NCBI RefSeq assembly: GCF_000938265.1
Contig: NZ_JYFC01000004.1
Coordinates: 62,001 to 126,000, forward strand
Direction of reading: 5' to 3'
Source of the DNA: Agreia bicolorata
GTDB taxonomy: Bacteria; Actinomycetota; Actinomycetes; Actinomycetales; Microbacteriaceae
Length of the DNA stretch: 64,000 nucleotides
The notes beneath the pieces were generated by a model. It made no database searches. It saw nothing but the letters and a program-made list of their open reading frames with translations, and was not told the origin of the DNA. Made by a program: the position numbers and the translations under genes. This document shows positions 1 through 31,328 of the stretch, in pieces; within the stretch, counting starts at the first letter, position 1; each line of letters begins with the position of its first letter.

Positions 1-153
1 TCAACGTTTCGTCCATCGAAATCGAGGTTTGTGACCCCGCGTGACGACGTGACGAATTGTGAACGAATCTGCTTGGCCCGCTTGCGCAGCCGCACCTAGC
101 GTCTCACCAACGCGACACGGCCCGTGTCGAGACCTAAGAAGAAGGAGGCAGAT

Positions 154-1296
154 ATGCCCATCGAATTCCTCGGCATCGCCGGGCTCAATGACGGCGGCGA
201 GACCCAGGCCCGTTCCGGCGCCAGTTTCGACAAGGACTACACGCTGCGGTTCGCCCGTGCTCATGAAGACAACGGCTGGGATCGGATCCTGTTCGCTTAT
301 CACTCGGGTGCTCCCGACCCGGCGACCGCGGCGGCCTACATCGCGTCGAAGCTCGATCACCTCAAGATCCTGCTCGCGCACCGGCCCAACGTGTCGTACC
401 CCACCTATGCGGCCAAGGTCTTCGCGACGCTCGACCAGATCAGCGACGGACGCCTCAACGTGCACGTCATCACGGGCGGTTCGACCGCCGACCAGGCGGC
501 GGAGGGCGATTTCCTCACGAAGGACGAGCGCTACGCTCGCACCGGCGAGTACATCCGCATCGTGAAGAAGGCGTGGACAAGCCGCGAGCCGTTCAGCTTC
601 GACGGAGAGCATTACCGCTTCGAGAACTTCGTCAGCGACATCTGGCCCGTGCAGCAGCCGCGGCCGCAGATCTCGTTTGGTGGCTCCAGCGATGCCGCGT
701 ACCGCATCGGTGCTGCCGACGCCGACATCTACGCGCTCTGGGGCGAGCCGCTGGCGAACACCGCAGAGCAGATCGAGCGCATCACGGTCGAGGCGCTCGC
801 GGTCGGACGCACCGAGCGACCCCGCATCCAGGTCGCGTTCCGCCCGATCCTCGGCGCCACTGAGGAACTGGCGTGGAAGAAGGCCGAGGAGATCCTCGGG
901 AAGATCGAGGCGCGGCAGGCGCAGGCCGCACCGAGCTCGTTCGTCGGCGACCCGAAGAACCCCGAGAACGCCGGATCGCAGAGGCTCCTCTCGATCGCGA
1001 ACCAGGGCGAACGCTTCGACCGGGCTCTGTGGACGCGGCCTGCCGCGGCATCCGGTGGGCGCGGCAACTCGAACGCCCTCGTCGGAACTCCTGAGACGGT
1101 GGCCGCGGCCCTGCTCGACTACATCGACCTCGGCGTCGACATCATCTCGGCTCGCGGCTACGACTTCATGAACGACACGATCGACTTCGGCCGCTATGTC
1201 ATTCCGCTCGTTCGCGACGAGGTCGCGAAGCGTGACGCGGCCGCCGCCCAGGCGTCGGCGTCGACTCAGCCGGAGGCATCCCGTGACGCTGCTTGA
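154..1296 (+). CDS. SsuD-like LLM-class flavin-dependent monooxygenase
   Basis: 380 aa. The protein follows the alkanesulfonate monooxygenase (SsuD) pattern: an N-terminal LLM barrel, the VITGGS segment near residue 105, FLTKDERYART, and the central ISFGGSSDAAYRIGA stretch followed by YALWGEP. This family uses FMNH2 and O2 to cleave C-S bonds in the cytoplasm. I chose the ATG at 154 because AAGGAGG lies 6 bases upstream; an in-frame ATG at 124 would add ten basic residues. The gene opens an operon: its stop overlaps the GTG of the GNAT-permease gene by 14 bases. The substrate is unknown; the amino-acid-type ABC transporter beside it suggests a sulfur-containing amino acid or sulfonate. Confidence 0.88.
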   Translation: MPIEFLGIAGLNDGGETQARSGASFDKDYTLRFARAHEDNGWDRILFAYHSGAPDPATAAAYIASKLDHLKILLAHRPNVSYPTYAAKVFATLDQISDGRLNVHVITGGSTADQAAEGDFLTKDERYARTGEYIRIVKKAWTSREPFSFDGEHYRFENFVSDIWPVQQPRPQISFGGSSDAAYRIGAADADIYALWGEPLANTAEQIERITVEALAVGRTERPRIQVAFRPILGATEELAWKKAEEILGKIEARQAQAAPSSFVGDPKNPENAGSQRLLSIANQGERFDRALWTRPAAASGGRGNSNALVGTPETVAAALLDYIDLGVDIISARGYDFMNDTIDFGRYVIPLVRDEVAKRDAAAAQASASTQPEASRDAA

Positions 1297-2905
1297 CCAG
1301 ACCCCGCGCGGAACCGAGCGTTTCGTCTACGTCTCGGCCGATGATGCGATCGCCGAGCCGCTGCTTCGCGAGCTCGAGCAGGAGTACGACGCGCGCTACG
1401 GCGAGTTCTTCGGCGAGAAAGCGTCGGCCGAGATCACGCGGTACCCGGCGGCGGCGTTCTCGCCTGAAGAAGGCGGCGCGTTCGTACTTCTGCTGCGCGA
1501 TGGCGTTGCCATAGCCGGAGGCGCATATAAGAGATTCGATGACCATACGGCGGAACTCAAGCGCATCTGGACCTCGTCGGCGCATCGGAGGCAGGGCCTC
1601 GCCCGCCGCGTAGTGAAGGAGCTCGAAGGCGAGGCGGTGCGCCGCGGATACACGCGGGCGTATCTCACGACCGGGCCGCGCCAGCCCGAGGCGAAGCACC
1701 TGTACTTTCAGACCGGTTACACGCCGCTGTTCGACACCACGCTCGACCCCGAAGAGGTCGTCGTGCACGGGTTCGCCAAGAGCCTGGATGACACGCCCCT
1801 CGACGTGGCCGGCATCACGACGGCCCATAACGACAGCCTCGCCGTGCGTTCCCCGCGCCCGTCGAACCGTTCCCTGAGCCTGTCGAAGAGGGATGCGCCG
1901 ACAGGCAAGGCGGAGCCCTTCGACAAGCTCAGGGAACGGGCGGTGAAAGTCGTGCCTGCGCGGCACTGGTGGCGGTGGGTGCTGAGCGCGCTCGTGGCCT
2001 TCGTGGTGCTGCAATTCGTGTGGTCGCTCGTTACGAACAAGCAGTACGAGTGGAACGTGTTCGCCGAGTACTTCTTTTCGCAGTCGGTGCTCAATAGCCT
2101 CGGCGTGACCCTCGGCCTCACGGTCGTCTCCGTGATCGGCGGGTTCATCCTGGGTGCGGTACTGGCGAACTTCAGGCTCTCGAAGTCGCCCCTGCTGAGC
2201 GGGGCGGCCTACGCCTACATCTGGTTCTTCCGCTCGGTGCCGCTGCTGGTGCAGATTCTCGTCTGGTACAACCTGGGCTACCTCTACCCGACGCTGGGGC
2301 TCGGAACTCCGTTCACGACGGACTTCTGGCTGGTCTCGTTCTCGACCACGACCTTGATCACGGCGTTTGCCGCGGCCACCATCGGACTCACGCTGCACCA
2401 GGCCGCCTATTTCGCGGAGATCATTCGCGGAGGCATCCTGTCTGTCGATCAGGGCCAGCTCGAGGCGTCTGCCGCCCTGGGCCTGCCTCGTCGGGTGCGG
2501 TTCTTCCGCATCATCCTGCCGCAGGCTGCTCGGGCCATTCTGCCCAACTTCTTCAACGAGGTCATCGGTCTGGTGAAGGGTACGTCGGTTGTGTTCGTCG
2601 TGGCGCTGCCCGAGCTCTTCTACACGGTGCAGGTGATCTACAACCGCAACCAGCGCGTCATTCCGCTGCTGCTCGTTGCGGTGGTCTGGTACGCGATCAT
2701 CACGACCGTGCTCTCGATCATCCAGTTCTACGTCGAGCGCCATTACGCCCGCGGCGCGCACCGCGAGCTGCCGCCCACGCCCATCCAGCGGGCGACGGCC
2801 TGGGTGAAGCAGCAGTGGGCGCGCCTCGGCGACGAGACGACCGACGACCCGCTCGCTGCCGAGAAGAACCGACGTCACGACATTGTTCTAGGAAGTGGAT
2901 CATGA
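1283..2905 (+). CDS. GNAT acetyltransferase fused to polar amino acid ABC transporter permease
   Basis: 540 aa in one open frame. Residues 1-165 form a GNAT domain with the acetyl-CoA loop RRQGLARRVV; residues about 228-520 form a HisM/GlnP-type permease with several membrane spans and the EAA-type loop EASAALGLPRRVRFFRIILP that contacts the ATPase. In known systems these are separate proteins. The linker (about residues 190-222) is encoded by a REP-like inverted repeat (1868-1888 and 1918-1938), giving the peptides NRSLSLSK and PFDKLRER. The GTG at 1283 was chosen because upstream residues look like an out-of-frame arginine-rich shadow of the preceding gene. The stop overlaps the ATPase start (ATGA). 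Either a true fusion or two genes joined when the repeat removed a stop; the frame is clean on both sides. Confidence 0.85.
   Translation: MTLLDQTPRGTERFVYVSADDAIAEPLLRELEQEYDARYGEFFGEKASAEITRYPAAAFSPEEGGAFVLLLRDGVAIAGGAYKRFDDHTAELKRIWTSSAHRRQGLARRVVKELEGEAVRRGYTRAYLTTGPRQPEAKHLYFQTGYTPLFDTTLDPEEVVVHGFAKSLDDTPLDVAGITTAHNDSLAVRSPRPSNRSLSLSKRDAPTGKAEPFDKLRERAVKVVPARHWWRWVLSALVAFVVLQFVWSLVTNKQYEWNVFAEYFFSQSVLNSLGVTLGLTVVSVIGGFILGAVLANFRLSKSPLLSGAAYAYIWFFRSVPLLVQILVWYNLGYLYPTLGLGTPFTTDFWLVSFSTTTLITAFAAATIGLTLHQAAYFAEIIRGGILSVDQGQLEASAALGLPRRVRFFRIILPQAARAILPNFFNEVIGLVKGTSVVFVVALPELFYTVQVIYNRNQRVIPLLLVAVVWYAIITTVLSIIQFYVERHYARGAHRELPPTPIQRATAWVKQQWARLGDETTDDPLAAEKNRRHDIVLGSGS
1868..1938. repeat. 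REP-like inverted repeat inside a coding sequence
   Basis: Left arm 1868-1888 begins CGTTCCCTGAGCCTGTCGAA and right arm 1918-1938 is its reverse complement with one mismatch (G to A). The 29-base loop is in frame with the surrounding GNAT-permease gene. The same repeat occurs at 31277-31328 and 45705-45754, both between genes. Confidence 0.92.
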
Positions 2906-3735
2906 GTACACCGACGTTCATTCGTTCGTTCGATGAGCAGGCGATTCCGCTTCCTGCGAAGCCGGTGCGGGCCACGGTCGGGCTGGTCGAGATCACCGAC
3001 GTCTCGAAGAGCTATGGAGCCGTGCGGGTGCTGCGCGACGTGTCGCTGACGGTGCAGCCCGGAGAGGTCATCGCTCTCATCGGTCCGTCGGGCTCAGGCA
3101 AATCGACGCTGCTGCGTACGATCAACCACCTCGAAACGGTCGACACCGGATCGGTCACCGTCGATGGACAATACATCGGCTACGAGCTCCGCTCCGGGCG
3201 GCTGCACGAGCTGCCGGAGAAGAACGTTCTCGAGCGTCGAACGCAGATCGGCATCGTTTTTCAGAACTTCAACCTGTTTCCGCACCTCACCGCGCTCGAG
3301 AACGTCGTCGAGGCGCCTGTCGCACTCAAACGGGCGACCAAGGCGGAGGCCCGCGAACAGGCGAAGGCTCTGCTCGCGAGGGTCGGGCTGGCAGACAAAG
3401 AGCACCACTACCCGCGGCAGCTCTCCGGAGGGCAGCAGCAGCGTGTGGCCATCGCCCGCGCGCTTGCCCTGAACCCGAAGGTACTGCTGTTCGACGAGCC
3501 GACCAGCGCGCTCGACCCCGAGCTCGTCGGGGAGGTGCTCGACGTCATCCGGGAGCTCTCGAAGAGTGGCACGACCCTCATCATCGTGACCCATGAGATC
3601 GGCTTCGCCCGCGAAGTCGCCGACCGCGTCGTGTTCCTCGAGCAGGGCGAGATCCTCGAAGAGGGAACGCCCAGCCAGGTGCTGTCGAAGCCGCGTCACC
3701 CCCGCACCAGAGATTTCCTCCGCAAGGTGCTCTGA
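2902..3735 (+). CDS. Polar amino acid ABC transporter ATP-binding protein
   Basis: 277 aa, normal for the family. Walker A GPSGSGKS at residues 61-68, Q-loop glutamine at 121, signature LSGGQQQR at 174-181, Walker B ending LLFDEPTSALD near 195-205, and a switch histidine in IIVTHE. The sequence pattern is that of GlnQ/HisP ATPases. It would power the permease encoded immediately upstream; the ATG at 2902 overlaps that gene's TGA, which indicates translational coupling. An N-terminal extension of about 28 residues precedes the usual ABC start. The specific substrate cannot be read from this subunit. Confidence 0.93.
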   Translation: MSTPTFIRSFDEQAIPLPAKPVRATVGLVEITDVSKSYGAVRVLRDVSLTVQPGEVIALIGPSGSGKSTLLRTINHLETVDTGSVTVDGQYIGYELRSGRLHELPEKNVLERRTQIGIVFQNFNLFPHLTALENVVEAPVALKRATKAEAREQAKALLARVGLADKEHHYPRQLSGGQQQRVAIARALALNPKVLLFDEPTSALDPELVGEVLDVIRELSKSGTTLIIVTHEIGFAREVADRVVFLEQGEILEEGTPSQVLSKPRHPRTRDFLRKVL

Positions 3736-3796
3736 CACCCGTCACAGCCCGAGCACCATCCATCACAGAAACCCAGAGAGGCGCCACCAGCAGATC

Positions 3797-4825
3797 ATGG
3801 CAATCAACAAGAAGCAGATCGGGGCAATCGTCGGTGCGGTCGTCGTCGTGGCCCTGGCCGGCGGCGGCATCGCCATCGCCGCCAATGCGAACAGCAGCAA
3901 CTCCGCCGATGCCGCCCCCACCGGCTCGACCGAGGATCAGGTCGCGGCGGCCACGTCGTTCGACCTCAGCAGCAAGAACGCCGATGACCGCCCGACCATC
4001 GACCCCGTCGCCGACGCGGTCGCATCCGTCAAGGCCAGCGGCTTTCAGCCGATCGAACCCGGCAAGCTCACCGTCGCCCAGACCGTCGCGAGCGGCGCCC
4101 CACCCCTGGTCTTCGCGGCATCCGACGACAACACGACCGCACTCGGAAGCGAGGCCGACTTCGCCGCCCTCGTGGCCGACGGACTCGGCCTCGACTACAA
4201 CCCCGTCTCGGTCGACTGGGCCGATTGGCCGCTCGGAATCCAGTCGGGCAAGTACGACATCATCCTCAACAACGTGACCGTCACCGAAGAGCGCAAAGAG
4301 CTGTACGACTTCGCCAGTTACCGGGTCGACCTGCTCGGCTTCTTCGTGAAGAGCGACAGCGACATCACGTCGATCACCGAGGCGAAGGACATTTCCGGGC
4401 TCACTATCATCGTGGGGTCGGGCACCAACCAGGAGAAGATCCTGCTCGCCTGGAACGAGGAGCTGACCAAGGCTGGCAAGAAGCCTGCCGAGCTCGTCTA
4501 CTACAACGACACCGCGGCGGCGAACCTGGCCATCCAGTCCGGTCGGGCCGACGCGAACTTCGAGCCCAACGCGAGTGGTGCCTACGCTGCCGCCTCGTCG
4601 GGAGATCTCAAGGGCGTCGGCACCGTCAGCGGTGGGTGGCCGCAGACCGCCGACATCGCGGCCGCCACAAAGAAGGGCAACGGCCTGATTGACGCCGTGA
4701 ACATCGTGCTCAACGCCGCGATCGACGGCGGCGAGTACCAGCAGGTGCTCGACCGCTGGGGCCTCGACAGCGAGTCGATCCCGAAGAGCGAGATCAACCC
4801 TCCTGGCCTGCCGAAGACCGACTAG
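3797..4825 (+). CDS. Family 3 solute-binding protein of the ABC transporter
   Basis: 342 aa. A basic N-terminus (MAINKKQ) leads into a hydrophobic segment (about residues 8-28) with no lipobox cysteine, so the protein is probably anchored by an uncleaved signal or released, unlike the typical lipoprotein form. The mature part shows SBP family 3 features: GSEADFAALVADGLGL, QSGKYDIILNNVTVTEERKE and YDFASYR. A purine-rich GAGAGG lies upstream of ATG 3797. It is the last gene of the operon with the ATPase and fused permease, and faces the convergent GNAT gene 15 bases away. Ligand probably an amino-acid-like molecule. Confidence 0.88.
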   Translation: MAINKKQIGAIVGAVVVVALAGGGIAIAANANSSNSADAAPTGSTEDQVAAATSFDLSSKNADDRPTIDPVADAVASVKASGFQPIEPGKLTVAQTVASGAPPLVFAASDDNTTALGSEADFAALVADGLGLDYNPVSVDWADWPLGIQSGKYDIILNNVTVTEERKELYDFASYRVDLLGFFVKSDSDITSITEAKDISGLTIIVGSGTNQEKILLAWNEELTKAGKKPAELVYYNDTAAANLAIQSGRADANFEPNASGAYAAASSGDLKGVGTVSGGWPQTADIAAATKKGNGLIDAVNIVLNAAIDGGEYQQVLDRWGLDSESIPKSEINPPGLPKTD

Positions 4826-4840: not shown

Positions 4841-5890
4841 TCAGTCGAGGTCGAGTCCGAAGGCGAAGATGTCCACGAATCTTCCGGGCTCGACCTCGAT
4901 GCGTTCCTCGCGATCCGGCAGCCGCACGAAGCCGAGCCGTGTGTACAGCCTCTGGGCCGGCAGCATGATGCTGCCCGTGTTCATGACCACACGCTTCACG
5001 CCTCGGATGCGGCCCAGGCCGACCACGTGCGACACGAGCGCTTCCCCGATTCCGCGGCCACGGGCATCCGGGCTCACGGCCAGCAGTCGGAAGTCGAGCT
5101 CGTCGTCGCGTGCCACGGCCGAGATACGGGCGCCGGGTCGGGGCGTCCAGACCGTGCCGAGGATCGCTCCCGTCGCGGTGTCTTCGGCCACCCACACCTC
5201 GTCGGATCGGGCGCGATCGTGCACATCGGCCAACGATCGCACGTAGCTCTCGGAGAGATCGTAGTCGTGCGTGTAGGCCTCGACGGTGAGGTGTGCGACC
5301 ACGTCGACCTCGTGGGGTCGCACGAGCCGGATGCGCACGGGTGCGACGTTCTCGATCGCATAGCGGTAGACCTGAGCGATGCCGACGCCGGGCTCGTGGC
5401 CTCCCTCGCGTGCGACGACCCGCTCGAAGCCGGCGCGCAGATAGTTGCGCTGCGCCGTGTGGTTGAGGGGCCCGGTGTCGAGCACGAGAGCGGTTGCGCC
5501 CCAGCTTCTGGCGAGGTCGATGGATGCCTGAACGAGCCCCTGCGCGACGCCGCGACCCCGGGCGGCCGGGTCGACGGCAAGCAGGCGCATCTCGGCTTCG
5601 CCATCGCGGGCCTGGCGTGAGATCGGGTTGTGGGCTCGGGTGACAGTCGCGGTGCCGAGCAGCGTTTCGGTGCCTTCTTCGACGGCGACGAGCAGCCCGC
5701 CATCGTTCGCGCGGGCTCCCGCATCGCGATGCATGGCGACGCGCTCGGGGCCGTGGTGCAGGTGAGCATAGGGACCGGTGGTGAAGCCCCGTGTGGTGAG
5801 TTCGCCGGTGGCCTCGTACTCGTCTTCTCGCGCCTGGCGCACGGTGAAGGCGGATGCGATGGCGGGCTGGGTCTCGAGAGGTTCTGGCAC
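4841..5890 (-). CDS. Tandem-domain GNAT N-acetyltransferase
   Basis: 349 aa with two GNAT domains in one chain. The acetyl-CoA loop appears twice: RLLAVDPAARGRGVAQGLV in the first half and RLLAVSPDARGRGIGEALV in the second, so both copies keep the motif A pattern R/Q-x-x-G-x-G/A. Start is a GTG at 5890. Convergent with the ABC operon (15 bases between stops). The family includes mycothiol synthase-like and many uncharacterised tandem GNATs; the flanking cluster would allow a role in acetylating the imported compound, but nothing in the sequence fixes the substrate. Confidence 0.85.
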   Translation of the reverse strand: MPEPLETQPAIASAFTVRQAREDEYEATGELTTRGFTTGPYAHLHHGPERVAMHRDAGARANDGGLLVAVEEGTETLLGTATVTRAHNPISRQARDGEAEMRLLAVDPAARGRGVAQGLVQASIDLARSWGATALVLDTGPLNHTAQRNYLRAGFERVVAREGGHEPGVGIAQVYRYAIENVAPVRIRLVRPHEVDVVAHLTVEAYTHDYDLSESYVRSLADVHDRARSDEVWVAEDTATGAILGTVWTPRPGARISAVARDDELDFRLLAVSPDARGRGIGEALVSHVVGLGRIRGVKRVVMNTGSIMLPAQRLYTRLGFVRLPDREERIEVEPGRFVDIFAFGLDLD

Positions 5891-31276: not shown

Positions 31277-31328
31277 CGTTCCCTGAGCTTGTCGAAGGGG
31301 GGAGGCCCTTCGACAAGCTCAGGGAACG
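31277..31328. repeat. REP-like inverted repeat between xylA and xylB
   Basis: Perfect 23-bp arms (31277-31299 and 31306-31328) around a 6-base loop; core of the right arm is CTTCGACAAGCTCAGGGAAC. Same family as 1868-1938 and 45705-45754. Placed within the xylA-xylB transcript, where such hairpins commonly act in RNA stability or partial termination. Confidence 0.92.

Follow-up and report, generated by a model that had tools for sequence, protein, structure and literature searches.

In a 64,000-nucleotide stretch of the Agreia bicolorata genome (NCBI RefSeq assembly GCF_000938265.1, contig NZ_JYFC01000004.1, positions 62,001 to 126,000 of the forward strand; hereafter the window, with coordinates counted from its first letter), one forward-strand frame, from GTG 1283 to TGA 2905, encodes 540 residues that span a GNAT acetyltransferase domain and an amino-acid ATP-binding cassette (ABC) importer permease, with a translated palindrome between them. 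A first-pass annotation of the window proposed that insertion of this repeat had removed a stop and a start codon and thereby created a membrane-tethered acetylase. Our analysis points to a different joint reading, which we regard as fairly probable: the frame would yield one tethered GNAT-permease protein, and the palindrome would be a passenger in a tolerated linker rather than the maker of the fusion. The parts of the fused gene are as follows.

1272–1276, plus strand: Shine-Dalgarno-like GGAGG upstream of GTG 1283 (anti-Shine-Dalgarno duplex energy).
1283–2905, plus strand: fused GNAT/amino-acid ABC permease open reading frame (ORF) (Pfam; open in 7 of 8 genomes of the genus).
1370–1717, plus strand: GNAT domain, Acetyltransf_1, residues 30–145 (Pfam; predicted local distance difference test score, pLDDT, mostly at least 90).
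1856–1957, plus strand: interdomain linker, residues 192–225, predicted to be disordered (pLDDT below 50).
1867–1888, plus strand: left arm of the family A palindrome, read as NRSLSLSK (inverted-repeat search; genome half-site count).
1918–1939, plus strand: right arm of the family A palindrome, read as PFDKLRER (inverted-repeat search).
1943–1945, plus strand: conserved GTG codon, a possible but weak internal permease start (kept in 7 of 7 species).
1967–2035, plus strand: extra N-terminal helix, residues 229–251, outside the match to Protein Data Bank (PDB) entry 4yms (structure model).
2141–2746, plus strand: permease core, BPD_transp_1, residues 287–488 (Pfam; closest solved fold 4yms).

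Both Pfam domains exceed their curated cut-offs, and together with the 540-residue ORF they bear out the first-pass observation that a GNAT domain and an amino-acid ABC permease share one frame. The GNAT assignment is joined by a GNAT fold, and BPD_transp_1 has adjoining genes for an ATPase and a binding protein, as befits an amino-acid ABC importer permease. The start at 1196 given by the ORF lister is likely not the one used; GTG 1283 is favored because GGAGG precedes it and because it is kept in six of seven species, the seventh (G001) having instead an ATG five codons upstream. Anti-Shine-Dalgarno duplex energies at GTG 1283 range from -9.5 to -12.6 kcal/mol in the six species having this start.

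The fusion is one open frame through both domains in seven of the eight genomes of the genus, which rules out a sequencing error or chance open frame as well as a fusion private to the window genome (G000). The eighth, G006 (2.8 Mb in 260 contigs, 96% complete), gave a distant permease match only and no fusion. A stop codon between the domains, an outcome that the first-pass annotation had allowed for, was looked for across the genus and found in none of the seven fused loci. With PLDVxGITxAH and VKVVP as anchors, linker lengths come to 114 nt in G000, 138 in G002, 162 in G005, 147 in G001 and 120 in G003, G004 and G007. All five lengths are multiples of three and all seven linkers are stop-free in the fusion frame; at least one other forward frame contains a stop in each of them.

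The long frame could nevertheless be an annotation effect, with two proteins made after all and the permease initiating at the internal GTG 1943. This codon is retained in every fused species, and the three linkers that carry palindrome family A give a weak Shine-Dalgarno match upstream of it (-6.0 kcal/mol). The four linkers with a second palindrome, family B, give 0 to -3.3 kcal/mol, however, a ribosome leaving the GNAT domain encounters no stop in any of the seven species, and the five linker lengths hold a single frame, as opposed to the other-frame overlap seen in 23 of 31 separate gene pairs of relatives. We consider two proteins improbable. The fusion is probably translated as one protein, with the GNAT domain on a disordered linker before the importer permease.

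A structure model of the fusion, built from a 61-row alignment, has a mean pLDDT of 81.9 and a predicted template-modeling score of 0.56, with the GNAT domain confident. The chain runs from this domain through residues 192–225 (pLDDT below 50) and the added helix 229–251 into the permease core. For that core the closest solved fold and sequence is the amino-acid ABC importer permease 4yms, which aligns to ORF residues 269–487 only and differs from the fusion in being without an N-terminal enzyme domain and in having nothing that matches the extra N-terminal helix. In the fusion, the EAA loop falls at about residues 388–402. This loop is cytosolic in ABC permeases, and counting the helices backwards from it would therefore place the N-terminus, and with it the GNAT domain, on the cytosolic side at the predicted permease N-terminus. 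In the product, which would thus be a single protein, a flexible linker would connect a cytosolic GNAT domain to the N-terminal end of the permease of a polar amino-acid ABC importer. The membrane-tethered acetylase proposed earlier is plausible by this model, given the disordered linker, extra helix and cytosolic GNAT domain; that the two parts form one polypeptide we infer.

The junction is indeed a translated repeat, as the first-pass annotation had read it: the family A arms, 22 nt each and 95% complementary, are inverted with respect to one another and are read in frame as NRSLSLSK...PFDKLRER. The window holds six family A half-sites at three places (1873/1919, 31282/31309 and 45708/45737), with 0.23 expected in shuffles; the further copies that had been noted near 31277 and 45705 are both real. 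The window genome (G000) carries 99 half-sites, the reversed control pattern none. Family B (TCTCGATACG...CTACTCGACC) reaches 88 matches per genome and is degenerate in the G007 linker; reversed controls of both families gave 0 or 1. Family A counts are 438 (G002), 230 and 99 (G000) in genomes with an A linker and 59, 47, 43 and 5 in those with a B linker, and exact family B counts are 88, 87, 10 and 0 in B-linker genomes and 26, 24 and 2 in A-linker genomes. Abundance in the genome is not strictly linked to the family in the linker, as G003 has more A than B and yet a B linker. G006, the sole genus member without the fusion, has no matches to either pattern.

Both families are short, imperfect, high-copy palindromes of the kind termed repetitive extragenic palindromes (REPs). 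To gauge their placement we used 33 family A clusters from 20 fetched G000 stretches and the window (45 of the 99 half-sites) and a rough method based on GC content at third codon positions. By this method 23 clusters have differing best coding frames on either side and three more an intervening stop, which makes the sampled family A repeats mostly extragenic; ten share the best frame on both sides, and seven of these are open through. The family A arms contain neither GTAG nor CGTC, and the family B arm contains GTAG, a candidate tag. A transposase of the REP-associated tyrosine transposase (RAYT) type, which not every genome with REPs has, was sought as PF01797 (Y1_Tnp); it was not found in G000, the one genome searched, and is present in 5 of 14 control genomes.

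The linker of the fusion holds family A in G000, G002 and G005 and family B in G001, G003, G004 and G007, and the four B linkers rule out family A as the cause of the fusion in all species. On a permease plus ATPase DNA tree the rows branch as G007_B, then (G002_A, G005_A) versus (G000_A, (G001_B, (G004_B, G003_B))), with two forks at 93–94% bootstrap, and the A/B label needs two changes. The approximately unbiased test rejected a single clade of A rows (p-AU 0.009) and likewise one of B rows (p-AU 0.014), the groups having been defined after seeing the tree. Between G003 and G004, 44 of 510 GNAT and 53 of 960 permease positions differ and none of the 120 linker positions, where about 8 differences would be expected at the flank rate of 6.6%. 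This identity over 120 nt beside diverged flanks may reflect palindromes that enter or are replaced at the DNA level; either the repeat has been homogenized among copies or the DNA is constrained. A recombination tract carrying the linker is not supported, the nearest differences lying 9 nt from its upstream end and 12 nt from its downstream end.

The same repeats occur within other proteins. Pfam domains flank the repeat in four of the seven open-through A clusters, that is, in 4 of the 33 sampled there are domains on both sides of the repeat in one open frame: the GNAT-permease fusion, NadB, an ABC exporter and an OleBC-like protein. The last three names are ours, Pfam supplying family names only. 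The other three open-frame clusters (L129, L131 and L136) are not counted as lying within genes because no Pfam family was found in any of them. In NadB (L119:3692 region; G000 contig C2, about 48591) an in-frame family A palindrome stands between FAD_binding_2 and Succ_DH_flav_C. Its linker is in frame in 7 of 7 genomes, with A in G000, G002, G003 and G005, B in G001 and G004, and an apparent decayed B in G007 (1 and 2 mismatches); NadB in G006 gave no match at the search threshold. The exporter (L121:1003-1056) has two family A arms between ABC_membrane and ABC_tran. The product of L135, which we take to be OleBC-like from its Pfam domains, joins an alpha/beta hydrolase to an AMP-binding enzyme through a palindrome linker (L135:1005-1022; genus loci L144-L151). 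This linker is in frame in all eight genus loci and carries A in G000, G002, G003 and G005, B in G001 and B plus one A arm in G004. G007 and G006 have neither exact pattern; in a scan that tolerates mismatches, the G007 linker resembles a decayed B (2 and 1 mismatches) and that of G006 stays close to chance level (3 and 2). Family A is read in two frames across these proteins, the GNAT-permease and OleBC-like proteins having SLSKG, and NadB and the exporter having PELVEG or PEPVEG.

Relatives of the fused gene were collected by homologue searches of 60, 398, 11, 54 and 396 genomes, sets that overlap and together comprise 928, and the counts of fused and separate genes that follow are among the matches listed whose loci were fetched and passed the filter. 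Besides the window there are 12 fused rows: six from Agreia, three from genus g21 (11 genomes searched, 6 with a match, 3 of these fused) and three from genus g15 (54 searched, 24 with a match, 3 of these fused). Same-strand pairs of separate genes, the GNAT gene lying upstream of the permease gene, number 31, in 23 of which the GNAT stop lies within a 4-nt ATGA or GTGA overlap and the permease is in another frame; those without it are L068, L069, L070, L076, L080, L093, L096 and L097. Among 15 further stretches the downstream permease adjoins the GNAT gene in ten, all ten with the ATGA/GTGA overlap. Two of the 31 pairs are doubtful. In L076 the GNAT frame breaks after 93 residues, and the L080 junction (L080:1231-1560, G441) contains a run of poly-A together with an apparent sequencing-adapter remnant; the separation of the two L080 genes may have arisen in assembly. 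Two g21 genomes (L054 and L057) have, in addition to the fused gene, a separate GNAT match upstream of it.

These relatives, a comparison that the first-pass annotation had called for, contain separate genes and also the six repeat-free fusions of g21 and g15. In those six linkers the match to the repeat arms of A and B is at shuffle level overall, the nearest to family A being L071 with 4 mismatches in 16 (shuffle mean 6.2). On the permease tree, a quick tree with long branches, the fused label needs five changes, of which starred branches force at least three; on the GNAT tree it needs five as well, at least two of them forced. Judged from these trees, the fusion likely arose three or more times in this bacterial family. 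The claim that insertion of this repeat created the fusion is not supported, since four of the seven Agreia fusions carry the other family, the six non-Agreia fusions are without the repeats, and the OleBC-like protein of G006 is fused without a recognizable one.

A narrower version would have some palindrome, A or an older B, insert at the 4-nt overlap, remove the stop and start and change the frame, with later copies replacing it. All seven Agreia fusions have a junction palindrome, degenerate in G007, which is the outermost Agreia on the tree and already holds a B element at the junction, and no repeat-free Agreia fused allele was found, so that one palindrome or another may yet have produced the fusion in Agreia. 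In the sister lineage G090 (fork 90 on the permease tree) the two genes are separate, overlap in ATGA and lie in different frames, so an insert whose length is not a multiple of three would be a natural route to fusion. Set against this are the six fusions without the repeats in two other genera and the presence of the repeats in the linkers of NadB, the exporter and the OleBC-like protein, which have several domains in any case, and we judge this origin unlikely. It is conceivable, though we lean against it, that the Agreia operon is instead a chimera whose GNAT came from another operon lineage, in which case the palindromes would mark a recombination breakpoint at the fusion point. The Agreia GNAT domains group (92/95) with 11 separate GNATs, and the downstream permease, seen for eight of these, is merely 45-48% identical; the Agreia permease groups with G090, G170 and G368. 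A tree joining the Agreia GNATs with those three is, however, barely rejected (p-AU 0.0497), and long branches are present.

We favor the repeat as a passenger chiefly because the OleBC-like fusion of G006 is without a recognizable repeat and repeat-free GNAT-permease fusions occur elsewhere. As related bacteria have separate genes or repeat-free fusions, the repeat probably settled in a tolerant linker and did not create the fusion. In outline, the ancestral state was likely two genes with stop and start overlapping by 4 nt and the permease in another frame; such pairs would have become a single frame several times in this family, and the Agreia linker would then have served as a landing place for two palindrome families, which were inserted, duplicated and exchanged while the frame stayed open.

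The remaining genes of the operon, which has the order luciferase-like monooxygenase (LLM), fusion, ATPase and binding protein, are as follows.

124–1296, plus strand: LLM-type (SsuD/MsuD-like) flavin monooxygenase gene, sharing its last 14 nt with the fused ORF (Bac_luciferase 3.9e-64; PDB 7jv3).
2902–3735, plus strand: polar amino acid ABC ATPase whose ATG overlaps the fused ORF stop by 4 nt (ATGA) (ABC_tran 4.5e-40).
3797–4825, plus strand: solute-binding protein, start inferred from sequence (SBP_bac_3 2.8e-20 on frame 3662–4825).

The best PDB relative of the monooxygenase is the alkanesulfonate monooxygenase 7jv3 (9e-50), and the alkanesulfonate model TIGR03565 scores 202 on the operon's monooxygenase, under its cut-off of 518. 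Upstream of the window (L047:5180-7773) are genes for an NlpA lipoprotein, an ATPase and a permease, methionine-importer-like and near the sulfur-type monooxygenase, and a protein with two GNAT domains adjoins the operon on the minus strand at 4841–5890. The scm (yxe) and ytn clusters of Bacillus subtilis include an ABC amino-acid importer, and the monooxygenase of the scm/yxe cluster belongs to the NtaA/YxeK group. As in that cluster type, genes for an acetyltransferase, a flavin monooxygenase and an amino-acid importer occur here together. The GNAT domain may be a putative acetylase of the imported compound, an assignment that we offer tentatively; as a guess, this compound is perhaps sulfur-containing and acetylated before the adjacent monooxygenase acts.

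Several observations weigh against the passenger reading and the function sketched for the protein. GTG 1943 could additionally start a separate permease. No repeat-free fused allele was found among the seven Agreia fusions, so the order of fusion and insertion there was not observed, and only one OleBC-like locus, that of G006, is free of a recognizable repeat, beside seven with one. The permease tree is quick and has long branches. The monooxygenase falls outside the NtaA group (TIGR03860, 77 bits against a cut-off of 280), and no deacetylase of the ScmP type is present among the 17 neighboring ORFs of L047 scanned with Pfam.

The fusion may also be real but neutral, coupled overlapping genes having drifted into one frame with no gain from tethering the GNAT domain. 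In many relatives the genes stand apart (31 separate pairs, compared with 12 fused rows in addition to the window), so two proteins are enough. Against neutrality, the fusion recurs in three genera and is retained in the seven Agreia genomes that have the operon. We place neutral fusion close to an even chance, and a benefit from tethering the putative acetylase to the importer remains doubtful. With one genus, several proteins, two repeat families, and fused and unfused relatives, these loci form a natural series in which to ask how selfish palindromes are tolerated in proteins, whether as linker decoration only or also as makers of fusions, and an acetyltransferase tethered to an importer raises the question of vectorial modification of the incoming substrate. 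That the Agreia palindromes amount to a pool of exchangeable interdomain linkers, entering and displacing each other between domains so that repeat turnover drives changes in linker length and composition, and that in one of these proteins uptake of an amino-acid-like compound is linked to its putative acetylation at the transporter exit, is as a whole an unlikely proposition. Among the matches listed from the open-licence literature, neither two different palindromes alternating in one linker across species nor a GNAT-permease fusion was met with, which for the fusion is not proof of its being undescribed.

Acetylate-then-cleave pathways are known for S-modified cysteines in Bacillus, and the B. 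subtilis scm (yxe) and ytn clusters, as described in PMC12757645, resemble the Agreia operon in having an acetyltransferase gene beside a monooxygenase gene. The Agreia operon differs from them in its SsuD/MsuD-like monooxygenase, in the GNAT domain fused to the permease and in having no deacetylase among the 17 ORFs scanned. The separate GNAT-permease relatives share the ATGA/GTGA junction of the -4 nt overlapping, translationally coupled gene pairs, which PMC10666635 describes as enriched for subunits of complexes; Agreia, by comparison, has lost that junction and its frames are joined. OleBC, named in PMC7158056, likewise unites hydrolase and AMP-binding domains in one protein, and most Agreia OleBC-like proteins differ in carrying a palindrome in the linker.

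Intragenic REPs and the idea that linkers tolerate them (PMC3733652), as well as in-frame Rickettsia elements (PMC2229807), are known already. The GTAG/CGTC-tagged REPs of PMC3733652 are, like the Agreia repeats, short high-copy palindromes, often dimers, found inside ORFs, and flexible linkers have been proposed there as neutral sites for them; Actinobacteria, Leifsonia, Clavibacter and Microbacterium have no mention in its main text. The Agreia elements differ in that the family A arms are without either tag, that G000 has no Y1_Tnp (RAYT) match and that two distinct families take turns at a single linker site among homologues. The Rickettsia palindromic elements, which are likened here by description (PMC2229807), are in-frame palindromic insertions within conserved protein genes; the Agreia elements are shorter, use two reading frames and, in four Pfam-supported cases, lie between domains. 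From these sequence comparisons we conclude that the Agreia palindromes would colonize permissive interdomain linkers and be exchanged there with the frame kept, much as intragenic REPs and Rickettsia palindromic elements do.

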